43,243 bases of DNA. It comes from Candidatus Woesearchaeota archaeon (GTDB lineage: Archaea; Nanobdellota; Nanobdellia; Woesearchaeales; JACPJR01). Of this stretch, positions 15,560 to 35,324 are shown piece after piece. A model generated the notes under the pieces. That model ran no database searches. It had not been told where the DNA came from and saw only the letters and a list, made by a program, of their open reading frames with translations. How positions within the stretch are numbered: the stretch's first letter is position 1; every line of letters starts with the position of its first letter. The position numbers and the translations under genes are program-made. Location: the NCBI GenBank assembly GCA_016187565.1, contig JACPJR010000016.1, positions 1 to 43,243 on the forward strand, given 5' to 3'.

Positions 15560-18500
15560 TCATTTACTTACCCAACCCTTAGCAATTAATTCTGCTTGCT
15601 TCAAAACTGTTTCAATTGCATTCTTCTCTTTATCAGGAGGATAACCATATTTTCTTAAAATCTTCTTGACTTTCAAACGCATTCCTGCTTGTACACTTTC
15701 CCTTTGAGTCCAATCTATTGTTACACTATTTCTAATCATTTCAGTTAATTCTAATGCAATTTTTCTGAGAGCATCATCACCTAAAATTTTAACAGCACTA
15801 TCATTAACTTCAAGAGCATCATAAAATGCAACCTCATCATCACTCATATTAAGCTCTTTACCTCTGCCTTTCTCATCTCTTACTTTTCTTGCTAATTCAA
15901 TCAACTCTTCAATAACTTGGGCAGCTTCTATACTCTTATTTGTATATTTCTTGATGGTTTTATCGAGCAAGTCCATGAATGATTTAGCTTGAACCATATT
16001 TTTCTTTGAAATGATTCTTATTTCATCATTGAGCAGTTTCTTTAATGCTTCAAATGCAAGATTCTTCTGAGGCATTTCCTTGACTTCTGCCAAGAAACCC
16101 TCAGATAAAATGGAGAGTTCTGGTTTTTGAATTCCTGCTGCTTCAAAAATATCTATAATTCTATCGGAGATTACCGCTTTTGACAAAATCTGCTTAATTG
16201 CAGAATCAAATTTATCCTGTAATTCTCTCTTTGTTTCTGTTGTTTTAGTAATGGCAGATTTTATTGCTTGGAAAAGTCCCACTTCATCTTTTATTTTCAT
16301 CGCCTGATCATGTGGAACAGCTAAAGAAAATGCTTTTAGAAGCGCAGTTACTTCTCTGGCAAATCTCTCCTTTTTGTCTTTCTCTTTGAGAATATGCTCC
16401 ATTGCAGACGGAACAAAAGAGATTCTCTCTTCTGGTCTATGCTGGAAGAATTTTTTATAATTGAAGCCATAAAACATATCTTTTACAACTTCATACTTTT
16501 CCATCATGAGCTTAACTGCTTGCTCTTGGTCAAAAGTCGGTTTTCCTTTTCCACCACTTTCGGTATAATTCATTAAAGCTTTTTTAAGTTCAGCACCAAC
16601 ACCCATATAATCAACGATTAAACCGCCTTCTTTTCCCGGATAAACTCTGTTTACTCTGGCAATTGCCTGCATTAATGTATGTCCTTTTATGGGCTTGTCT
16701 AAATACATAGTATGAAGAGAGGGAGCATCAAAGCCAGTCAGAAACATATCTCTTACAACTATTAATTTTAATTCATGCTTATCATTTTTTAGATTATCTC
16801 CTATCTGCTTTCTTCTCTTTCTATTTCTTATATGCTGTTGCCATTCTTTAGGATCAGAAGCTGAACCAGTCATAACGATTTTTATAAAGCCTTTGTCATC
16901 ATCTTCATTATGCCATTCTGGTTTTACTTTTATTATTTCGTTGTATAAATCAACACAAATTCTTCTGCTCATACCAACAATAATTCCTTTTCCTTCTAAA
17001 ACAGATATTCTTTCCTCAAAATGCTTTACTATATCTTTGGCGATTCTGCTTATTCTTCTGGGAGAGCCTGCAACCTTTTCCAATTGCGCCCATTTGCTTT
17101 TTAGTTTGTCTTTGCCTTCAATTTCTTCCCCTTCTGTGGCTTCCTCAAACTCTTCATCTATTTTCGGTCTTTCTTCGGGCTTTAGTTCAAGTTTTGCTAA
17201 TCTACTTTCATAAAAAATTCTAACCGTAGCTCCATCTTCAACTGCCTGCTCAATATCATAGACATCAACATATTTCCCGAATACTGCTGGGGTGCTTCTA
17301 TCTGATTTCTCAATAGGAGTTCCAGTAAATCCAATAAACGAGGCATTTGGCAGGGCATCTCTCAAATACTTAGCATATCCATAAGTGATTAATGCTTTTT
17401 CTTTCTTGTCTAATATTTTAGCAGAAAAACCATACTGGCTTCTATGGGCTTCATCGGCAATAACAATTATGTTATCTCTTTCTGAGAGAATAGGATATTT
17501 TTCTCTGTCTTCTTCTGGAAAGAATTTTTGTATTGTTGTGAAAACAACACCGCCAGAAGATACTTTGAGAAGTTTCTGAATTTCTTTTCTGTCATTTGCT
17601 TGTGTCGGCTTCTGCCTTAGAATCTCTTGGCATTTTCCAAAAGTTCCAAATAGCTGGTCGTCTAAATCGTTTCTATCAGTTAAGACTATGATTGTAGGAT
17701 TGTCAAATTCTCTGACTAATTTTCCAGAGTAGAAAACCATCGTTAAAGACTTGCCAGAGCCTTGCGTATGCCAGACCACTCCTGCTTTTTTATCGCCTTT
17801 TGGCTGTTCTTTAACAGATGAAAGCCCATAAGATTCTGGAGCTTCTCTTACTTGCATGATTGATTTTGCACTGGCTCTTCTTGTTGATTCTATTGCTTTA
17901 ATCACAGCCCAATATTGATGATAAGCAGCTACTTTCTTTTTTGTCTCTTTATCTTTTTCAAAAACAATGAAGTTCCTGATAATATCCAATATTCTCTTTT
18001 TATCACACATTCCTCTGAGTAGGATTTCTATCTCGGTAAATCCTTTCTTTGGCTTTTCTCCGTTGATGGTTTTCCATTGCATAAACCTCTCTCTTTCAGA
18101 GGTGATTGTTCCTGCTCGTGCTTCGATTCCATCACTGATGATTAAGATTTCATTAAATCTGAATAAAGACGGTAGCTGTTGCATATAAGTTTGGAATTGG
18201 TCGTAAGCTGTCCAAATATCCGCTTTTTCATCTGCCAGATTCTTTAATTCCAAAACTACTAACGGCAAGCCATTTATGAACACAATAACATCAGGTCTTC
18301 TTTCAACATTATTTTCAATAATTGTAAACTGATTAACTGCTGAAAATTCATTATTTTCGAGGTTATCAAAGTCGAATAATTTAACTATAATGTGCCTTTC
18401 TTCTCCGCCTTTTGAGATTGGAATACTCACCCCATCAACAAGCAGCTTATGGAAACTTTCATTATCGGCAATGAGTTTCTGGCTTTCACTTCTCAGAATT

Positions 18501-23451: not shown

Positions 23452-24975
23452 TTACACCTTAAACCCAATACTCTCCAAATTCTTCTTTATTTCAACATCC
23501 AACTTCTGCCCTTCTTTCATCTGTTCAGACAATTCAGCAGTTAATCGTTTCATTCTCTCTTCAAAAGCTTCGTCATCTTCTACTTCTTCTTGGATTCCAA
23601 CATATCTTCCAGGAGTTAGGATAAAATTGTTCTTTTCAATCTCTTCTAATTTAGCGGATTTGCAAAAGCCAGTAACCTCTTCATATTTGAGCTTATTTTC
23701 TCCTCTCCATGAGTGATAAGTGGAAGAGATTTTCTTAACATCATCTTCAGTCAACTCACGATGCCGTCTATCAATCATCACGCCCATATTTCTGGCATCA
23801 ATAAACAAGATTTGCCCTCTTCTGTCCCTAAACGAATGGTCTTTTTTATCTCGTGTAACAAACCATAAACACGCAGGTATCATGGTGTTATAAAATAACT
23901 GAGATGGCAAAGCTACCATGCAATCAACCATATCAGCATTAACGATATTTTTCCTTATTTCTCCTTCATTGGAAGTATTAGAACTCATTGAGCCATTTGC
24001 CAGAACAAAACCTGCCACCCCAGTAGGGTTTAGATGATGAATAAAATGCTGAACCCATGCAAAATTAGCATTATTCTTTGGAGGAACTCCAAACTTCCAG
24101 CGTACATCTTCCTGCAATAATTCACCGTTCCAATCAGAATCGTTAAATGGAGGATTAGCAAGAATAAAATCTGCTTTCAAATCTTTATGCTGGTCATCAT
24201 GGAAAGCATCGCCCCATTTGATATTTGAGTCAATCCCTCTAATCGCCATATTCATCTTACAAAGCCGCCATGTTGTCTGGTTGCTTTCCTGTCCATAAAC
24301 AGAGATGTCTCCTATTCTTCCGCCATGTGCTTCAACGAATTTTTCGGATTGAACAAACATTCCACCTGAACCACAGCAGGGGTCAAATATTCTTCCCTTG
24401 TATGGCTCTAACATCTCAGTTAATAGCTTTACGATAGAACGAGGAGTATAGAACTGCCCGCCTTTCTTTCCTTCAGCAGAGGCAAACTCGCCTAAAAAGT
24501 ATTCATAAACTCTTCCAAGAATGTCTTTACTTCTGTTTTCTTTATCACCAAGTCCAATCGTGCCAATTAAATCGATTAATTCCCCTAATCTTTGTTTATT
24601 CAATCCTGGACGAGCATAATTCTTCGGAAGAACACCTTTAAGTGTGGGATTATCTCTTTCAATAATATCCATTGCTTCATCAAGAAATTTTCCAATCTCT
24701 GGTTTTTTTGCATTGGCTTGAAGATGCTCCCATCTTGCTACTTTTGGAACAAAGAAAATTCTCCTAGAGACATACTCATCAACATCTTCTGGATCTGAAT
24801 CTTTCTCTGTCTTCAGTTTTTCATAAACTTCTATAAAAGCATCAGAAATATACTTTAAAAAAATCAAACCTAAAACAACGTGCTTATATTCAGCAGCATC
24901 CATATTGCTTCTTAACTTATCAGCAGAAGACCATAATTTTTGTTCAAAACCTAAGTTAGCACCGTTATTTGACAT
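23452..24975 (-). CDS. hsdM: Type I R-M DNA methyltransferase subunit HsdM
   Basis: 507 aa from the ATG at 24975. An N-terminal helical domain ([20 protein letters not shown]) precedes the adenine-N6 methylase core with SAM motif [10 protein letters not shown] near residue 200 and catalytic motif IV NPPF near 272. [14 protein letters not shown] is the typical HsdM signature before motif I. It methylates the site chosen by HsdS and protects the host DNA. I prefer ATG 24975 ([12 protein letters not shown]) because GGGGGGCGAG stands just before it; a GTG five codons upstream is also possible. It is the first gene of the R-M operon. Confidence 0.95.
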
Positions 24976-25010
24976 TTTCTCGCCCCCCACTTAAACGCTA
25001 CTTCTCCGAT

Positions 25011-27289: not shown

Positions 27290-28459
27290 TCAAATCACCT
27301 TCTGAAATCGTCCTATCACTTCATCTACCTTATCAGAGTCAGGGGTACACAAGGCTAGTCGAACATACTGAGGAATGCCGAAAGGACGTCCAGGAACAAC
27401 ACCAATGCCAACTTGCAACAAGTTTTCTGAAAGCCTGTCTCCATCATAAACTGGATGTCGGGCACAAAGATAAAGACCTCCTTGTGGGGTAAGGACAGTA
27501 AACCCAAGCCTCGAAAGTTCTTGTTCGTACGTTCGTAACTTTTGAAGTGCTGGTTGCCAATCAACGTTCAGAGGAAGATGACATTGACTAAGAGCTAGCT
27601 GTTCACGGGTTGGAGCCTGAACCACTCCTCGTGCAGGAAGTCGATCTGCCAAACGTTGTACTGCCCCCTGATAATCAGGGAATTCAGGATGCAACGCAAC
27701 ATAGCCTATTCGACATCCAGCTAAACGCCCCTCTTTAGAGAATGAATACACAACCGCAGTAAGCTCGTAATCAAGAGTTTTAATAACTGAGTTCCATTGT
27801 TCACCTTCACGTACTAAAGCACGATAAGGCTCATCCGAAATAACCAACAGATTCCTCTTATCATTGTTACTACCATGAAGCATATCTCCCAAGTTACGAA
27901 GAAAATTGACTGAGAAAATCTTTCCTGAGGGATTGTTGGGAGAATTAAGAATCAATGCACGTGTGTTTTGATGCACGTTTGTTGTTATCTGCTGGAGTAA
28001 TGTTTCTTCGTTGTTGGTATAGGGAATAATGTTTGGAGTAAGGCGAGTATGCGTTGCATATTTAACATAGAGCGGGAAATAGGGAGATATAATCAACACT
28101 TCTCCAGGAGAGAGTTGGTCAAGTAAAGCAACAATTCCCTGAGCAGCACCAGGCATGGCCACAATGTGCTCTTCAGTTGTTGCAAGACCATTTACCCTAC
28201 GTTCAAGATCTGCCACTGAACTGCGAAAGTCTGAGTGTCCTGAAGAAGATGTATACGCATTACTCTCTGAGACTCCTTCACGCTCTCTTATGATCAGGTC
28301 TTGTAATCGCTGCGCATATTCTCCATTAATACTGCCACAAGGATTACCTTGAGATAAATCCAGTGGTGTAACCCCAGCTTCCCTTGCAGCCGATAGCAGC
28401 CTCTGGCGACGGCTACGTATGGGATCTGGTCGAAGAGGACGTTCAAAAGGGGTTTGCAT
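27290..28459 (-). CDS. Class I/II PLP-dependent aminotransferase
   Basis: 389 aa, fold type I. Visible motifs: NSPNNPSGK (substrate/PLP region), VISDEPYRAL (Asp and Tyr that hold the PLP ring), and YSFSKEGRLAGCRIGY with the Schiff-base Lys at about residue 242. The family includes aspartate- and branched-chain-type enzymes; exact substrates cannot be read. It lies 110 nt downstream of the M20 deacylase gene of the arginine cluster on the same strand, but that gap holds an AT-rich TATA-like stretch, so it may have its own promoter. As no class III ArgD is present, it is a candidate for N-acyl-ornithine transamination; this is inference. Confidence 0.88.
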   Translation of the reverse strand: MQTPFERPLRPDPIRSRRQRLLSAAREAGVTPLDLSQGNPCGSINGEYAQRLQDLIIREREGVSESNAYTSSSGHSDFRSSVADLERRVNGLATTEEHIVAMPGAAQGIVALLDQLSPGEVLIISPYFPLYVKYATHTRLTPNIIPYTNNEETLLQQITTNVHQNTRALILNSPNNPSGKIFSVNFLRNLGDMLHGSNNDKRNLLVISDEPYRALVREGEQWNSVIKTLDYELTAVVYSFSKEGRLAGCRIGYVALHPEFPDYQGAVQRLADRLPARGVVQAPTREQLALSQCHLPLNVDWQPALQKLRTYEQELSRLGFTVLTPQGGLYLCARHPVYDGDRLSENLLQVGIGVVPGRPFGIPQYVRLALCTPDSDKVDEVIGRFQKVI

Positions 28460-28569
28460 GTTACTTTATCTCATCTTTTACATGCAAAGAACCACTGATG
28501 ATTTAAAAATATATCTTCATCGAGGTATGTCGTTAAATGTAAAGAATAAAACATATGAAACAAGAAACA

Positions 28570-29631
28570 CTAAGAAGATCTTGCAAAATACTCACGGACA
28601 ATAGCGGTGTAAGCACGTGTTGCCTTCTCAAGCTCTTCAATCAGAATAAATTCATTGGCAATATGCGATTGTGCGCTATCTCCGGGACCAAGGATAATAC
28701 CAGGAGCATCAACCCAGTTTAAATCACAGGTTGTTGGCGTTCCATAGACCCTGTTTGCTGTGAGTGCACGCTTTGCTGCACGAACAATGAGCGCATCTCT
28801 TTCTGTTTGTTTTGGATGATAACGATTCGCAACGACCGTAACCGTACCTGTAACTGTTTCGGTAAGTACGTCAATCATCCTCTCATTGGGATATTCTGGT
28901 GTTGTTCTGATATTTAAGCCAAAGGTACATGATGCAGGAATGATATTAGGGCGTTCTCCGCCATTTATGCTCGTTACCGCTATTGTCGGATAGCCCAACA
29001 GAGGATTTTTCTGATGAAATTGCAGGGATTGTATTCTCTTCATATCCTCAACAGCTGCAAGAATAGCGTTGGTACCAAGTTCTGGTTTTGCCGCATGACA
29101 ACTAACTCCGCGTGCATGAACTTCAAGAAGAACAACGCCTTTCATAGCAACTCGTATCTTCAGTCCCGGTTCTCCAATAATTGCTGCATCTATTTGCGGT
29201 AAACGATGAATCAAATCTGCAAGACCTTTATCTCCTATTTCTTCTTCGCACGTCAAAGCAAGGATAATGCTTCCTCGAGAAGGAGGAGATTTCGCGAGAT
29301 CATTGAAAGCAGTAACCATAGCAGCGACGCATCCCTTGGCATCATTTGCTCCTCGGCCATAGATCCTTCCCTTTTGCTCAACTGCCTGAAAGGGATGAGT
29401 AATCCAGCCTTCTCCTGGAGGAACAGTATCAGTATGCGTATTCAGTAAAAGCGTTGGCTTTCCTTTACCAAGCATACAATAAACATTTCTGCCATGGACA
29501 ACCGGCTTAAGCCCTTTTTTTTTCAGATACAAAGTAATAAAACGAACAATATCCTTTTCCTGTCCACTAATACTAGGAATTGCAATAAGATGCTTCAGGA
29601 GCGTCTTGGTATCATAATCCTCGTTCAGCAT
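28570..29631 (-). CDS. argE: M20 deacylase, ArgE/DapE/LysK family (candidate N-acyl-citrulline deacylase)
   Basis: 353 aa. M20 metal-binding motifs are present: NTHTDTVPP (H66, D68), GRGANDAKG (D97, bridging ligand) and TCEEEIGDKG (general base and ligand around 129-131); a dimerisation domain follows. These zinc/cobalt enzymes remove acyl groups from amino acids. In a cluster with an acyl-ornithine transcarbamylase the logical substrate is N-acetyl- or N-succinyl-citrulline rather than acyl-ornithine; this is inferred from context. LysK-type amino-group removal is less likely because no LysW-like carrier is visible. The start overlaps argB by 20 nt; the gene ends the tightly packed part of the operon. 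Confidence 0.85.
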   Translation of the reverse strand: MLNEDYDTKTLLKHLIAIPSISGQEKDIVRFITLYLKKKGLKPVVHGRNVYCMLGKGKPTLLLNTHTDTVPPGEGWITHPFQAVEQKGRIYGRGANDAKGCVAAMVTAFNDLAKSPPSRGSIILALTCEEEIGDKGLADLIHRLPQIDAAIIGEPGLKIRVAMKGVVLLEVHARGVSCHAAKPELGTNAILAAVEDMKRIQSLQFHQKNPLLGYPTIAVTSINGGERPNIIPASCTFGLNIRTTPEYPNERMIDVLTETVTGTVTVVANRYHPKQTERDALIVRAAKRALTANRVYGTPTTCDLNWVDAPGIILGPGDSAQSHIANEFILIEELEKATRAYTAIVREYFARSS

Positions 29632-30532
29632 ACGACATTTTCTCCTGGGATGTCACCATCATGGTTCCAATTCCTTCTTCAGTGAATATCTCAAAAAGCA
29701 ATGCGTGTTGCTTACAACCGTTAATGATCTGTGCTCGCCGAACACCGTGCTCAACCGCATGCAAAAGCGTGACGAGCTTGGGATGCATGCCCTGGGTTAT
29801 AACACCATCCTTAACAAGTTGGTGAAAATCTGTAGTATCAATAACACTTATCACACTATTTTCATCATGGACATTACGGAGAACACCATTGCAATCGGTA
29901 AGACTGATGAGCTTACAGGCCTTTAGCTGAACAGCAATCTCTGCTGCAATAGTATCAGCGTTAATATTATAGATCTTTCCTTGATCATCTGCTGCAAGAG
30001 AGGAAATAACCGGAACATAATCATTTGCTAGAAGGACCTGCAACAGCTGTGTATCCACTTGTTGTACATCACCAACATGACCATAATCCACCTCAGTAAC
30101 GTCCCCGGTCTCTATATTTTCGACCTTTTGTACCGGACGCTTTGCTGCATAAATAAGACCACCATCTATTCCAGAAATACCAACTGCTTGGACACCATGC
30201 TTCCGCAAAAGTGAAATGAGGTCAGTGTTAATTTTACCTGCAAAAACCATTTTGACTATTTCAAGATCCTCATCGCTTGTTACTCTTCTGCCATTGATAA
30301 TTGTTGGTGTATGTCCTAACCGTTTGGAAAGCTCAGTTGCCTGCTTTCCTCCACCATGGACAAGGATAATGTGGATGCCTACTTGATGGAGCGCTGCAAT
30401 GTCAGCTGCAATAGTATTGAGAAGCATTTGATCGTCAATTAAACTACCACCTAGTTTAATAACAAAGGTTTCTCCTTTAAATTTTCGAATATAAGGAATT
30501 GCTTTGGTAAATCCCTGAATAGCTTCGAGCAT
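29612..30532 (-). CDS. argB: N-acetylglutamate kinase-like protein ArgB
   Basis: 306 aa, amino-acid kinase family. FVIKLGGSLIDD (residues ~22-33) and LVHGGGKQ (~58-65) are the phosphate-binding loops; GRRVTSDEDLEIVKMVFAG and VGISGIDGGLI fit the N-acetylglutamate kinase signature. It phosphorylates the gamma-carboxyl of N-acylglutamate. The ATG shares one base with the argF' stop (TAATG), and the gene overlaps the deacylase, so the genes are translationally coupled. LysZ-type activity cannot be fully excluded by sequence alone, but the neighbours point to arginine. Confidence 0.9.
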   Translation of the reverse strand: MLEAIQGFTKAIPYIRKFKGETFVIKLGGSLIDDQMLLNTIAADIAALHQVGIHIILVHGGGKQATELSKRLGHTPTIINGRRVTSDEDLEIVKMVFAGKINTDLISLLRKHGVQAVGISGIDGGLIYAAKRPVQKVENIETGDVTEVDYGHVGDVQQVDTQLLQVLLANDYVPVISSLAADDQGKIYNINADTIAAEIAVQLKACKLISLTDCNGVLRNVHDENSVISVIDTTDFHQLVKDGVITQGMHPKLVTLLHAVEHGVRRAQIINGCKQHALLFEIFTEEGIGTMMVTSQEKMSYAERGL

Positions 30533-31542
30533 TAGGGTTCACCGAGTAACGTCATAAGAAGACCCATCTGGGCATACAAACGGTTTGCAGCCTGCGTATA
30601 GATAATAGAAGCAGGACTATCAATAACAGCATCAGTGGCAACCACGTTTCTTCGAATGGGAAGACAGTGCATAAATTTCGCTCCTTTTGTCTGATGCATT
30701 TTTTCTTCATCAACAATCCAATCTTTGTAGGCTTGCCGCATTTTTTTCTCTTCTTGTAGATTTCCATAATAAAGCCGTGATCCCCAACTCTTAGCATAAA
30801 TAATAGAGCTATCATCCAGTGCGTTATGGTAATCGTGCTGCTGCTCAAACCGAGAATGTTGGGATAGACAGTTCTGTTTTACTTGCTGAAGAATATCCTC
30901 ATCAAGATCATGGTCAGGAGGATTAATGATGGTTACATCCATACCCATCCTGCTCGCAATAAGTACCGCTGAGTTAGGCACAGCCATAGGTAAAGGACTA
31001 GGATGATATGCCCAAAAAAGCACAAATTTTTTTTGGTGAACATTGCCGAGTACTTCCTGCATGGTCATGATATCAGCCAGTGCCTGACAAGGATGGTAGC
31101 ACGAGGATTCCATATTGATAACGGGTTTTTCACTGTAACGGACAAACCCTTGCATGATCTCATCCTTTTTATCTTGTTCCCAGTTTTCCATAGTAGGAAA
31201 GGCTCTAACTGCAAGCACATCACAATATTGAGAAAGAACGTGTGCAGCTTCTTTAATGTGTTCAGCCTTATCACCATCCATGACAACATGGTCCCGCCAT
31301 TCCAAATTCCACATACCCTTACCCACTTCAAGATTAATTGCATGACCACCCAAAAGAGCCATTCCTGCCTCAAAGCTCGCACGAGTACGCAACGATGGAT
31401 TAAAAAAGAGCATACCAAGGATTTTTTGCTTAAGTACCTGAGGATAAGATTTTGTTTGCTTAAGCGAAAGACCTAAGGTAACAAGGTGTTGCAGTTCCTC
31501 AACAGAAAAATCCTGAGTTGTTATAAAATGCCTGAGTTTCAT
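30532..31542 (-). CDS. argF': N-acetyl/N-succinyl-ornithine carbamoyltransferase (ArgF' type)
   Basis: 336 aa from the ATG at 31542, beginning MKLRHFITTQDFS; a GGTGGTG ribosome site precedes it (a TTG six codons upstream is less likely). The carbamoyl-phosphate loop is FFNPSLRTR. Several stretches match the acetylornithine transcarbamylase of Xanthomonas as I recall it rather than classical OTCase: GKGMWNLE, VMDGDKAEHIKEAAHVL, VRAFP, HPSPLPMAVPNS, YAKSWG and HCLPIRRNVVATDAV. It would carbamoylate N-acyl-ornithine to N-acyl-citrulline. At the residue that separates acetyl (Glu) from succinyl (Pro) enzymes it has Ala93, and the position of the carboxylated Lys of the acetyl enzyme is Val, so succinyl or other acyl specificity is possible. 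Confidence 0.88.
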   Translation of the reverse strand: MKLRHFITTQDFSVEELQHLVTLGLSLKQTKSYPQVLKQKILGMLFFNPSLRTRASFEAGMALLGGHAINLEVGKGMWNLEWRDHVVMDGDKAEHIKEAAHVLSQYCDVLAVRAFPTMENWEQDKKDEIMQGFVRYSEKPVINMESSCYHPCQALADIMTMQEVLGNVHQKKFVLFWAYHPSPLPMAVPNSAVLIASRMGMDVTIINPPDHDLDEDILQQVKQNCLSQHSRFEQQHDYHNALDDSSIIYAKSWGSRLYYGNLQEEKKMRQAYKDWIVDEEKMHQTKGAKFMHCLPIRRNVVATDAVIDSPASIIYTQAANRLYAQMGLLMTLLGEP

Positions 31543-31565
31543 ACGTTCACCACCAGTCAACGGAG

Positions 31566-32630
31566 TTAGGGACTGCTCCCCAAAAAATCAAGTCCTGCTC
31601 GCTGATCAAAGCCAAACATCAAATTCATATTTTGAATCGCCTGACCTGCAGCCCCCTTCACGAGGTTGTCAAGAGCACTACAGACAACGACAAATGTATG
31701 CTTGCCTTCTTGTTTGCTCTCCACATTGATGTCACAATAATTAGTCAAGGAAACAACACGACTTTCAGGTGAGGCATCGCGTATCCGAATAAATGGTTGG
31801 CCTGCATAAAAATCCTTGTAAAGCTGCCGAAGTTCTGACGACGATAAAGGACGAACGAGTTTTGTGTGAATGGTTGCAAAGATACCCCGAACAAACGGAG
31901 CTGAATGGGTAATGAAATGAAAGTTCTCAGGGACAGTACCAAGCAATGTTAACTCTTGCAGAATTTCAGGAGTATGTTGATGGGTAAAGAGTTTGTAGGC
32001 ATAAAAATTATTCGTTCGAAATGCATGGGTTGTTTCCTGTTTAGGGATATGGCCACTACCTGATGAACCGGTTTTTGCATCAACAATCAAATAATCACTG
32101 AGCAATTTTTTCGTAACTAAAGGTATGCATCCTAATAACACTGCTGTTGCAAAACATCCTGGATTTGCGACATAACGTGCCTTAGCAATTGCAGTAGCAT
32201 GGAGTTCGGGCAACCCATACACAAAATAATGAAGATGTTCATGCGACTGATGTTGCTTTTGATAATACTTTGCATAAATCTCTGGATCTTTGAGACGGAA
32301 ATCGCCGCTTAAATCAATAATCTTTACTCCCTTGTGCAGAAGATCAGGAACAAGTTCCATTGAGGTTCCATGTGGTGTTGCTAAGAAAACAAGATCTGCG
32401 CTCTTTGCAATTTTTATTGCATCATACTCCTCAAAACACAGATTTGTTACACCCAACAGATTTTTGTGCACCTCTGCAATTAGTTTTCCTCCATGAGTCG
32501 TTGAGGTAACAGAAACAAGTTCTCCATGAGAATGATGTAGCAATAAACGGATGAGTTCTCCACCAATAAATCCTGAGCCCCCAACCACAGCTACCTTAAT
32601 TGACTTCACAGGTGTTGATGTGCTGCTCAT
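31566..32630 (-). CDS. argC: N-acetyl-gamma-glutamyl-phosphate reductase-like ArgC
   Basis: 354 aa. The N-terminal Rossmann motif is VAVVGGSGFIGGELIRLL (residues ~13-30), and the active-site Cys lies in YVANPGCFATAVLLG (~150-165). DLSGDFRL and the His-containing HSAPFVRGI stretch are also as in the family. It reduces acyl-glutamyl phosphate to the semialdehyde with NADPH, between ArgB and transamination. The gene overlaps the DUF1611-like gene by 35 nt and is followed after 23 nt by argF'. GGGATTAATC before the ATG supplies the ribosome site. Confidence 0.92.
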   Translation of the reverse strand: MSSTSTPVKSIKVAVVGGSGFIGGELIRLLLHHSHGELVSVTSTTHGGKLIAEVHKNLLGVTNLCFEEYDAIKIAKSADLVFLATPHGTSMELVPDLLHKGVKIIDLSGDFRLKDPEIYAKYYQKQHQSHEHLHYFVYGLPELHATAIAKARYVANPGCFATAVLLGCIPLVTKKLLSDYLIVDAKTGSSGSGHIPKQETTHAFRTNNFYAYKLFTHQHTPEILQELTLLGTVPENFHFITHSAPFVRGIFATIHTKLVRPLSSSELRQLYKDFYAGQPFIRIRDASPESRVVSLTNYCDINVESKQEGKHTFVVVCSALDNLVKGAAGQAIQNMNLMFGFDQRAGLDFLGSSP

Positions 32631-33702
32631 GATTAATCCCTAGACAATGGATACGATGTTCTTCAGTCTTCAGATGCTTAGCCTTTAGTTTTTTTTCAAC
32701 GAGGGCAGAAAATTTCTTTGGATTACTCCATGCGTTTGCTGCGGATAGGCCAAGTTTTTTCTCAACAAAGGCTATGCCAACCTCGTCATCGGTAGTTGGC
32801 CCACACATGATATCAATAGTATGACCATAGAGGTCCATTGCTTTTTTCGCTCCCCATGCAGCAACAGGATCGCTTGCTGCCATTACCAAGCAACAAACAT
32901 GCTGCACAAGATCATTATCAGCTAAAATTTCTTGAACTCCATAGTCTCCCATAATACCATCACCAAGTTCCACAACAATGAAATCAGGGTTATAGGCATG
33001 TAACGCTTGAATAATTCCTTTAGCTGCTTTTGGAACGACGGCTGCATTTGTTGTTGAAGGGAATCCTACATCAGTAAAGGAAAGTGCCTTAACAGCGCCA
33101 TGATCTTCCATATTCAACAAGTCTCGCATAAGGGAAACACCAGTAACCTTTGCACCGGCAACAATGTACTGCTTGCTGTGAAGATACTGAATAATCTCGC
33201 ATGCTGCCTGGGTTTTTCCCGTATTCATACAGGTGCCTGCAACCATGATTAATGGTACTGATGTTGTGAGTGTTTCCTGTAACGGCAGGGCAAAATCCTT
33301 CATGTTACATGGCTTACCATCGATAAGAACTCCGCCGAGAACTTCAACTTTTAAGGCATGACCAATACTTTTATTTTCCGAGGTGCAAAGGCCAATAACA
33401 CCACCCATATTCAGGACATGCAACACATCGCCAACAACCACGGTTTCAGGAATATGACCGACAAATCCCTTCAAAGCTTTACGTTCACCTAAAACACTCA
33501 CGATAATATCATTTTTAGAGATCTTGGCCATTCTTCCGGTAACAAGTTCCATTTGGTCATAAATCCGTTTTTCTTCAAGTGCCCGTACGACAACAACTTG
33601 GCCCTCTTGTGCAACAATGTCAGCCGTCAGGGTAACTTGTTTCTCTAAAGGGATATTTTTTGTCGGCGAAGCAATCTTGTGTACTTCTATCGTAGTCATC
33701 AT
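32596..33702 (-). CDS. DUF1611-like P-loop protein, first gene of the arginine operon
   Basis: 368 aa. A beta-rich N-terminal part (~1-145) is followed by a P-loop domain: VAGTCMNTGKTQAACEIIQ (Walker A at ~156-164), then KVTGVSLMRDL, FTDVGFPSTT and PDFIVVELGDGIMGD. This layout recalls DUF1611, one member of which (DgcN) has been reported, as I recall, to acylate D-glutamate; the family call is from memory and not certain. It is the promoter-proximal gene and overlaps argC by 35 nt. No ArgA or ArgJ is present, so it may catalyse the first N-acylation of glutamate or regulate the pathway; both are inference. Confidence 0.7.
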   Translation of the reverse strand: MMTTIEVHKIASPTKNIPLEKQVTLTADIVAQEGQVVVVRALEEKRIYDQMELVTGRMAKISKNDIIVSVLGERKALKGFVGHIPETVVVGDVLHVLNMGGVIGLCTSENKSIGHALKVEVLGGVLIDGKPCNMKDFALPLQETLTTSVPLIMVAGTCMNTGKTQAACEIIQYLHSKQYIVAGAKVTGVSLMRDLLNMEDHGAVKALSFTDVGFPSTTNAAVVPKAAKGIIQALHAYNPDFIVVELGDGIMGDYGVQEILADNDLVQHVCCLVMAASDPVAAWGAKKAMDLYGHTIDIMCGPTTDDEVGIAFVEKKLGLSAANAWSNPKKFSALVEKKLKAKHLKTEEHRIHCLGINHEQHINTCEVN

Positions 33703-33872: not shown

Positions 33873-34571
33873 ATGCTAATCAAACTCAAGCAAACATTAC
33901 AAAGGCATGCAGATTCTGAAAGAGCAAAAATTCTCCAACGATTTTTTAAAACAGGAAAGGGTGAGTATGGCGAAGGAGACATCTTCTTGGGGATTACTGT
34001 TCCCGTACAACGACAAATTGCAAAAACATTTCATAATCTTACGATAAAAGACATCCATGAACTGCTCAAAAGCAAAATTCATGAACATCGGTTGCTCGCC
34101 CTGCTTATTCTCGTAGGACAATACGAAAAAGGAAGTAGTACAGAAAAAAAGGAGATCGTTGTATTTTATCTCAAGCACGGTCAATGGATTAATAATTGGG
34201 ATCTTGTTGATCTCTCGGCACCAAAAATTCTTGGTGATTACTTATTGGACAACCCAAGAGATGTACTCTACAAACTTGTAAGATCACCATCAGTATGGGA
34301 AAGAAGAATTGCAATCATTGCAACCTATACGTTTATTCGTCATCAACAATTTGACGATACTATCCATATTGCAGAGCTCCTGATGAAGGATTCACATGAT
34401 CTTATTCACAAAGCAGTTGGATGGATGCTTCGAGAAGTAGGAAAGCAAAGTCTTGATGTAGAAGAACAATTTGTAAACGAACATTGCCAGCATATGCCAA
34501 GGACCATGTTGCGGTATGCTATTGAACGATTTCCCGAGCAAAAACGAAAAATATACCTCCAGAAGAGATAA
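33873..34571 (+). CDS. AlkD-like DNA alkylation repair HEAT protein
   Basis: 232 aa, all-helical. GKGEYGEGDIFLGITVPVQR near the N-terminus, NNWDLVDLSAPKILGDYL near 110-125, and VWERRIAIIATY are the conserved family signatures of AlkD-type alkylpurine DNA glycosylases (HEAT-like repeats wrapping DNA). The Asp of NNWDLVD is the residue proposed to act in base excision, and the Arg/Trp of WERR contact DNA. It removes N3- or N7-alkylated purines without base flipping; activity here is inferred from family. A leaderless promoter precedes it, and it forms no operon with its neighbours. Confidence 0.88.
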   Translation: MLIKLKQTLQRHADSERAKILQRFFKTGKGEYGEGDIFLGITVPVQRQIAKTFHNLTIKDIHELLKSKIHEHRLLALLILVGQYEKGSSTEKKEIVVFYLKHGQWINNWDLVDLSAPKILGDYLLDNPRDVLYKLVRSPSVWERRIAIIATYTFIRHQQFDDTIHIAELLMKDSHDLIHKAVGWMLREVGKQSLDVEEQFVNEHCQHMPRTMLRYAIERFPEQKRKIYLQKR

Positions 34572-34616: not shown

Positions 34617-35324
34617 ATGAGCAAATTAAAACTGTCCACGGTAGCCCTCTTGGGATTAAGTGTCATCTTACTCCTCCTGAGTATTGGCTGTACACAAAAA
34701 GCTAATGCATGTAGCACTTTGGAGGGGCATGAACGAGATCTCTGTATCAAAGAGAAAGCCATCAATGACACCAACCTTAGTCTTTGTCAAACAATCGCGA
34801 ATGAAAACTGGCGAGCAGATTGCGTAAGCAAGATAGCTGTGAGTACGAATAATATTACGCTTTGTGCCCAAGTAACCAATCAAAGCAGAGAATACTGCAT
34901 TACTGAAATTGCACGACAGAAAAATAATGTTAAACTCTGCACTGCACTAACGGATGAGTACTGGAAAGATACCTGCTATAGTGATTATGCCATCAATAAT
35001 AGTCAAGATGAATTTTGTCAGGAGATAAATGTTGAGTGGCGCCATGATAGATGTTATAGCACTATTGCAAAGCATGAAAATAACGAGCTACTCTGTGTAA
35101 AGATAAAGAACGATGCAACACGCGATCAATGTTTCCGTACCATTGCAGTTACTAAACAAGACATAAAGATCTGTTCACATCTTGTCGATAGACTCGGTGG
35201 AGAATACTGTAGGTATTCGGTTGCTCTTGCTCGGAAAGATATCAACGATTGCTTCACCATTACCTTTTCACCAATTCGTCTCGATTGCTTGCAGAGATTT
35301 ACAACACTCAACCAAACATCCTAA
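34617..35324 (+). CDS. Secreted lipoprotein-like protein with Cys-paired helical repeats
   Basis: 235 aa. The N-terminus is a signal peptide ending in a lipobox-like LLSIGC (residues ~20-25). The rest is built of ~28-aa repeats of the type C..I.N..WR..C...IA....N...LC (for example LCQTIANENWRADCVSKIA, and LCTALTDEYWKDTCYSDYA). The regular Cys pairs suggest disulfide-stapled helical hairpins outside the cell, similar in spirit to Sel1/TPR scaffolds; I cannot name a family. Function unknown; binding of a partner on the cell surface is likely. The stop codon is immediately followed by tRNA-Ser. Confidence 0.75.
   Translation: MSKLKLSTVALLGLSVILLLLSIGCTQKANACSTLEGHERDLCIKEKAINDTNLSLCQTIANENWRADCVSKIAVSTNNITLCAQVTNQSREYCITEIARQKNNVKLCTALTDEYWKDTCYSDYAINNSQDEFCQEINVEWRHDRCYSTIAKHENNELLCVKIKNDATRDQCFRTIAVTKQDIKICSHLVDRLGGEYCRYSVALARKDINDCFTITFSPIRLDCLQRFTTLNQTS

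Follow-up and report, generated by a model that had tools for sequence, protein, structure and literature searches.

The window analysed here, a 43,243-nucleotide stretch from a Candidatus Woesearchaeota archaeon (contig JACPJR010000016.1), carries on its minus strand a cluster of five genes that starts with the gene of a 368-residue P-loop protein, followed by argC, argF', argB and the gene of an M20 deacylase. We consider it likely that this cluster leads from glutamate to citrulline via N-acylated, most likely N-succinylated, intermediates, and the P-loop protein probably represents a novel type of first-step enzyme in this biosynthesis. In the proposed pathway, the P-loop protein would convert L-glutamate to N-acyl-L-glutamate, which ArgB would phosphorylate and ArgC would reduce to the semialdehyde. 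An ArgD-family aminotransferase, here probably LysJ from another contig, would turn the semialdehyde into N-acylornithine, the predicted substrate for carbamoylation by ArgF'. The M20 enzyme would then remove the acyl group to release citrulline, and ArgG and ArgH, encoded elsewhere, would convert citrulline to arginine.

The P-loop gene (32596..33702), first in the cluster, is proposed to encode an N-acyl(succinyl)glutamate synthase. It is followed by argC (31566..32630), encoding N-acyl-γ-glutamyl-phosphate reductase (TIGR01850, 403 bits against a cut-off of 234), and by argF' (30532..31560), encoding a knotted N-acylornithine carbamoyltransferase with a succinyl-type signature (NF003384, 453 bits against 288); the true start of argF' is probably the ATG at 31542 rather than 31560. 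Next come argB (29612..30532), encoding N-acylglutamate kinase (TIGR00761, 238 bits against 151), and the M20 gene (28570..29631), whose product matches Peptidase_M20 and M20_dimer of Pfam and is proposed to be an N-acyl(succinyl)citrulline deacylase. The successive junctions measure -35, +5, -1 and -20 bp, and the five genes form a single overlapping cluster. An earlier, sequence-only reading of the window had placed these five open reading frames and a downstream class I aminotransferase here; we recovered the same limits for all six, on the minus strand, and curated Pfam and NCBIfam models agree with its identification of five of them.

The genome itself was surveyed by family searches and in a few stretches. 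A family search found no ArgJ in it, and a search with PF00583, the only GNAT family searched, found no recognisable ArgA. The two PF00583 matches are an Elp3-like protein of 568 residues and a 402-residue protein without the architecture of ArgA; as a control, the same model finds E. coli ArgA at 1.9e-11. Because the P-loop gene is linked to arginine genes and excludes ArgJ, and neither search turned up another first-step enzyme in the genome, it is quite probable that the P-loop protein forms N-acyl-L-glutamate. This role as the source of N-acylglutamate is the half of the sequence-only interpretation that stands, whereas the half concerning the aminotransferase and LysW does not, as described below.

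A scan of 84,980 species genomes retrieved 15 relatives of the P-loop protein, at 40-50% identity, from several bacterial phyla, and the genes around them are argG, argC, an argD-family gene, argF', argB, M20 and argH. In nearly all of the fetched clusters, from Acidobacteriota, Planctomycetota, Gemmatimonadota, Rhodothermota/Bacteroidota and five archaeal genomes including the present one, the P-loop gene sits directly upstream of argC. The gene also stays ahead of argC-argD-argB in clusters without argF' (loci L080-L087), an arrangement that associates it with the early steps of the pathway. Among 371 genomes of the window's phylum, strong matches were found in this genome and three others, and a fourth archaeal relative of the same order comes from another sample. 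The archaeal P-loop genes are interleaved with the bacterial ones in the tree, which suggests that they were acquired by transfer from bacteria. The cluster had at first been thought new for an archaeon, a view that proved too restrictive, since four further archaeal genomes of the order have this operon, with argD included, and it is also widespread in bacteria. No earlier description of a P-loop acylglutamate synthase was found in the literature searched, from which subscription journals and preprints were excluded.

The P-loop gene is strongly linked to knotted ArgF'. Among 247 bacterial genomes from the phylum to which G033 belongs (locus L010, labelled Acidobacteria), 53 have both, 12 the P-loop gene alone, nine ArgF' alone and 173 neither. 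ArgJ is present in none of the 65 P-loop-positive genomes, compared to 93 of the 182 P-loop-negative ones. As ArgJ is likewise absent wherever knotted ArgF' occurs (0 of 62 genomes), the exclusion was re-examined within the genomes without knotted ArgF', where ArgJ is present in 0 of the 12 with the P-loop gene versus 93 of the 173 without it (p=1.6e-4; p-values here overstate independence, as the sampled genomes are related and most of the 12 represent one clade). The occurrence of the linkage in several phyla carries more weight. Moreover, ArgJ is missing from 14 of the 15 bacterial genomes identified in the first scan, and in the one that has it the P-loop gene lies outside any arginine cluster. 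Overall, the gene is linked to argB, argC and argD and is mutually exclusive with ArgJ, with a single archaeal exception (G029). Separately, six loci (L070-L073, L075 and L076) were seen to carry argC-argD-argF'-argB clusters, with ArgF' largely of the succinyl type, in genomes from which both the P-loop gene and ArgJ are absent.

Even with the threshold relaxed to E=10, neither Pfam nor NCBIfam recognises the P-loop protein of the window, and its best sequence hit in the PDB is no better than E=0.15. Its AlphaFold2 model, built from 17 aligned sequences, has a predicted local distance difference test score (pLDDT) of 90.4 and consists of an all-β domain of ~140 residues followed by a SIMIBI P-loop domain. 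The N-terminal all-β domain (residues 1-140; 33283..33702, minus strand) reaches a pLDDT of 92.3 when modelled alone, and a Foldseek search of the PDB gave no structural match for it (best E 0.75). The P-loop domain contains the Walker A motif G-T-C-M-N-T-G-K-T (residues 156-164; 33211..33237, minus strand), and Foldseek matches it at a probability of 1.0 to FtsY, HypB, dethiobiotin synthetase (BioD) and CTP synthetase (CTPS). By its Walker A motif and predicted fold, the protein is thus assigned to the SIMIBI P-loop nucleoside triphosphatases (NTPases). Six residues, G156, G162, K163, K185, D194 and E245, are invariant in 10 members down to 24% identity, of which K185 aligns with the last lysine of the corresponding stretch of BioD. 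With no family match and a model combining a β domain and a P-loop domain, the protein fits none of the known types of N-acylglutamate synthase, namely GNAT ArgA with its variants and the ArgJ fold.

The label "DUF1611-like", given to the protein at first, captures a resemblance at the level of the P-loop superfamily but not family membership, which we rejected. The window protein has no match to PF07755, the scanned distant relatives stay below its gathering cut-off of 25 bits, and 12 of 17 relatives match DUF1611_C or CbiA only weakly (best 1.6e-4 and 1.2e-4) and around the Walker region. Similar to DUF1611 proteins such as DgcN, the protein has a C-terminal P-loop domain of the same superfamily, and NCBI gives the label "DUF1611 domain-containing" to two of its distant full-length relatives. 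It differs from them in the lack of a PF07755 match, in the all-β N-terminal domain of the AlphaFold2 model and in that no racemase neighbour was seen. DUF1611_N is Rossmann-like, and DgcN, the D-glutamate N-acetyltransferase of the D-Glu pathway, acts on glutamate. The gene dgcN is described as key to a D-Glu racemization pathway (PMC12363236).

Apart from the relatedness of the sampled genomes, three observations weigh against a role of the P-loop protein in forming N-acylglutamate. First, the archaeal relative G029 (locus L024) has the full operon plus an argJ at its end (17091-18263), which may be redundant or may serve to return the acyl group to glutamate. Second, the nine genomes with knotted ArgF' but no P-loop gene have no ArgJ either, which implies another acyl-donor enzyme there or incomplete genomes. 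Third, the superfamily extends beyond arginine, as distant full-length homologues of the P-loop protein adjoin ABC exporters or lie in a phosphonate-like cluster. Instead, the protein could supply or regulate something else in the pathway: it might, for example, provide carbamoyl phosphate, act as a regulator, or assist ArgC or ArgF' as a chaperone-like NTPase. The SIMIBI fold, shared by HypB- and FtsY-type GTPases as well as by BioD and CTPS, would allow for such a helper, as would the ArgJ within the operon of G029 and the homologues outside arginine clusters. However, the gene stays with argC-argD-argB where argF' is missing, which argues against carbamoyl phosphate supply; the absence of ArgJ from all 65 P-loop-positive genomes is not required of a helper; and neither the ArgJ nor the PF00583 search revealed another first-step enzyme in this genome. 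We therefore regard a helper function as unlikely.

Distant homologues were also inspected in their own right. Members of one distant subfamily lie beside an ABC transporter gene on Rhodobacterales plasmids and in a genome of the acidobacterial phylum (L100:5902-8672, L101:6001-8639 and L088:7752-10640). On a plasmid of Priestia megaterium (L102:2745-12444), a homologue with 32% identity is accompanied by a phosphoenolpyruvate mutase, two thiamine diphosphate-dependent subunits, an ornithine carbamoyltransferase, two ATP-grasp proteins and an M20 enzyme, an arrangement suggestive of a gene cluster for a phosphonate product that includes a spare ornithine carbamoyltransferase.

As to the chemistry of N-acylglutamate formation, SIMIBI biosynthetic enzymes use ATP to activate a carboxyl-like oxygen. 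The P-loop protein shares with BioD, CTP synthetase and CobB/CobQ the P-loop fold, an aligned Walker A motif and lysine, and the invariant Asp and Glu, whereas its extra domain is different and the sequence match is confined to the Walker region. By analogy with BioD and CTPS, we give an even chance to an ATP-dependent ligase, in which a carboxylate and ATP would form an acyl phosphate that is then attacked by the amino group of glutamate. We prefer this route over a CoA-dependent transfer by the P-loop protein, which appears rather improbable.

Two known pathways resemble the one proposed here. The succinylated pathway of Bacteroides, with the GNAT enzyme ArgA2 (BT3761), the SOTCase BT3717 and the desuccinylase BT3549 (PMC7311316, PMC9026213, PMC4581275), also has a succinyl-type knotted ArgF' and an M20 deacylase, and retains the acyl group until acyl-citrulline. 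In contrast to its GNAT first enzyme, the P-loop protein with its new β domain is unrelated in sequence and fold. In the acetylated pathway of Xanthomonas, with NAGS-K, AOTCase and acetylcitrulline deacetylase, carbamoylation likewise precedes deacylation; however, its AOTCase has E/N/K at three diagnostic positions and its first step is catalysed by a GNAT enzyme.

These positions bear on the nature of the acyl group. Three residues (E92, N185 and K302 in X. campestris) separate acetyl- from succinylornithine transcarbamylases, the succinyl type having A/S/P/V/Q, P and V/I/E, respectively (PMC4581275). The window ArgF', in which the HPCQ and HCLP motifs and the proline-rich loop of knotted N-acylornithine carbamoyltransferases are visible in the alignment, has A/P/V and thus matches the succinyl type. 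In all fetched P-loop clusters ArgF' has P at 185, V/I/E at 302 and A/S/T at 92, and the sole true acetyl-type ArgF' (E/N/K) examined belongs to a genome that lacks the P-loop gene. In addition, the best PDB match of the M20 enzyme is 3ct9 (7e-59), which we take to be Bacteroides BT_3549, compared to 7e-15 for the acetylcitrulline deacetylase 2f7v. BT_3549 has been named as a desuccinylase candidate (PMC7311316). Given the succinyl-type residues of ArgF', the acyl group is probably succinyl rather than acetyl. The same pathway running on acetylated intermediates is the less likely variant: the NCBIfam model matched by ArgF' bears the name of acetylornithine, and several relatives have T at position 92, outside the published A/S/P/V/Q list, but the window enzyme is succinyl-type at all three diagnostic residues, its relatives from P-loop clusters at two of three throughout, and the M20 enzyme is far nearer to 3ct9 than to the acetylcitrulline deacetylase. 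As this variant shares the pathway proposed here, the confidences given to the rival explanations overlap.

The aminotransferase step has no dedicated gene in the cluster. The class I aminotransferase (27290..28459, minus strand; Aminotran_1_2 of Pfam) lies next to the cluster on the same strand, but is separated from the M20 gene by 110 bp; it lies outside the overlapping unit and probably outside the arginine unit. Read by eye, the gap (28460-28569) is AT-rich with a TATA-like stretch, so that this gene may have a promoter of its own; a scan with a sigma-70 model, which is ill-suited to archaea, gave matches no more frequent than in shuffles. The sequence-only reading had let this enzyme replace ArgD in a cluster self-contained from glutamate to citrulline. 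Its position would fit, as would the lack of argD, which four archaeal relatives keep between argC and argF' and which is absent in the window lineage, in L012 and, within the stretch covered, in L020; moreover, class I enzymes that use acylated diamino acids are known, and models of the DapC type match weakly. However, the enzyme falls below the NCBIfam cut-offs of its own best matches and has no homologue in any related cluster fetched. Contig C1 of the genome, at a locus separate from the arginine cluster, encodes an ArgD-family LysJ that scores 447.8 against the TIGR00707 cut-off of 410, a class III assignment that the class I enzyme does not reach; an argD elsewhere in the genome was what the sequence-only reading had itself named as evidence against its view. 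We rejected the class I enzyme as ArgD, being unneeded and not conserved, and consider this role very unlikely. Instead, an economical and quite likely explanation is that argD was lost and that LysJ performs the ArgD step, and a dual role of LysJ has a precedent in the NCBIfam model for LysJ of Sulfolobales, whose name includes aminoadipate semialdehyde as well as glutamate semialdehyde. ArgG and ArgH are both encoded on contig C15.

LysW, LysX, LysY and LysZ are encoded with LysJ on C1; LysX, LysZ and LysW score above their own cut-offs, and LysX matches the archaeal LysX model. LysW is missing from the arginine cluster, as had been claimed, but not from the genome. With these proteins present, and since certain archaea use a single set for lysine as well as arginine (PMC4490483), arginine might be made on the LysW carrier, leaving the acyl-type cluster as a remnant or for another product. 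This appears even more improbable, because the cluster has argB, argC, argF' and M20 of its own, all intact and with their specificity residues conserved, this type of ArgF' uses N-acylornithine (PMC4581275), and a second M20 enzyme elsewhere in the genome could serve lysine. At the C1 locus, the LysW homologue (L022:2844-3005) ends in ...EEDWGQ, with Gln where the substrate-carrying terminal Glu is usual, and an open reading frame resembling class II glutamine amidotransferases (L022:8410-9066) lies between lysY and lysZ.

Elsewhere in the window, an HsdM-like open reading frame (23452-24990, by eye) and the same-strand frames down to 15560 probably form a type I restriction-modification locus. 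A DNA alkylation repair enzyme (PF08713) is encoded at 33873-34571, divergently from the arginine cluster. A Cys-rich open reading frame with a lipoprotein-like start, degenerate internal repeats and no Pfam match (34617-35324) lies just before a tRNA-Ser gene. The archaeal assignment, already made in the sequence-only reading, draws on the match to the archaeal LysX model and on archaeal-looking neighbouring frames that resemble, by eye, ABCE1 and deoxyhypusine synthase.

More tentatively, we suggest that the widely distributed P-loop family comprises ATP-dependent N-succinyl-L-glutamate ligases, with a fold and chemistry unlike those of GNAT enzymes, ArgJ and LysW/ArgX, within a wider superfamily of amide ligases, and that a succinylated pathway operates outside Bacteroides and in archaea. 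If so, the family would represent a new solution to acyl protection with a new enzyme chemistry, and would extend the succinylated pathway to archaea. Arginine prototrophy is predicted from genomes, and clades with an unrecognised first enzyme appear auxotrophic; a common new first-step family would thus correct auxotroph calls in several phyla.

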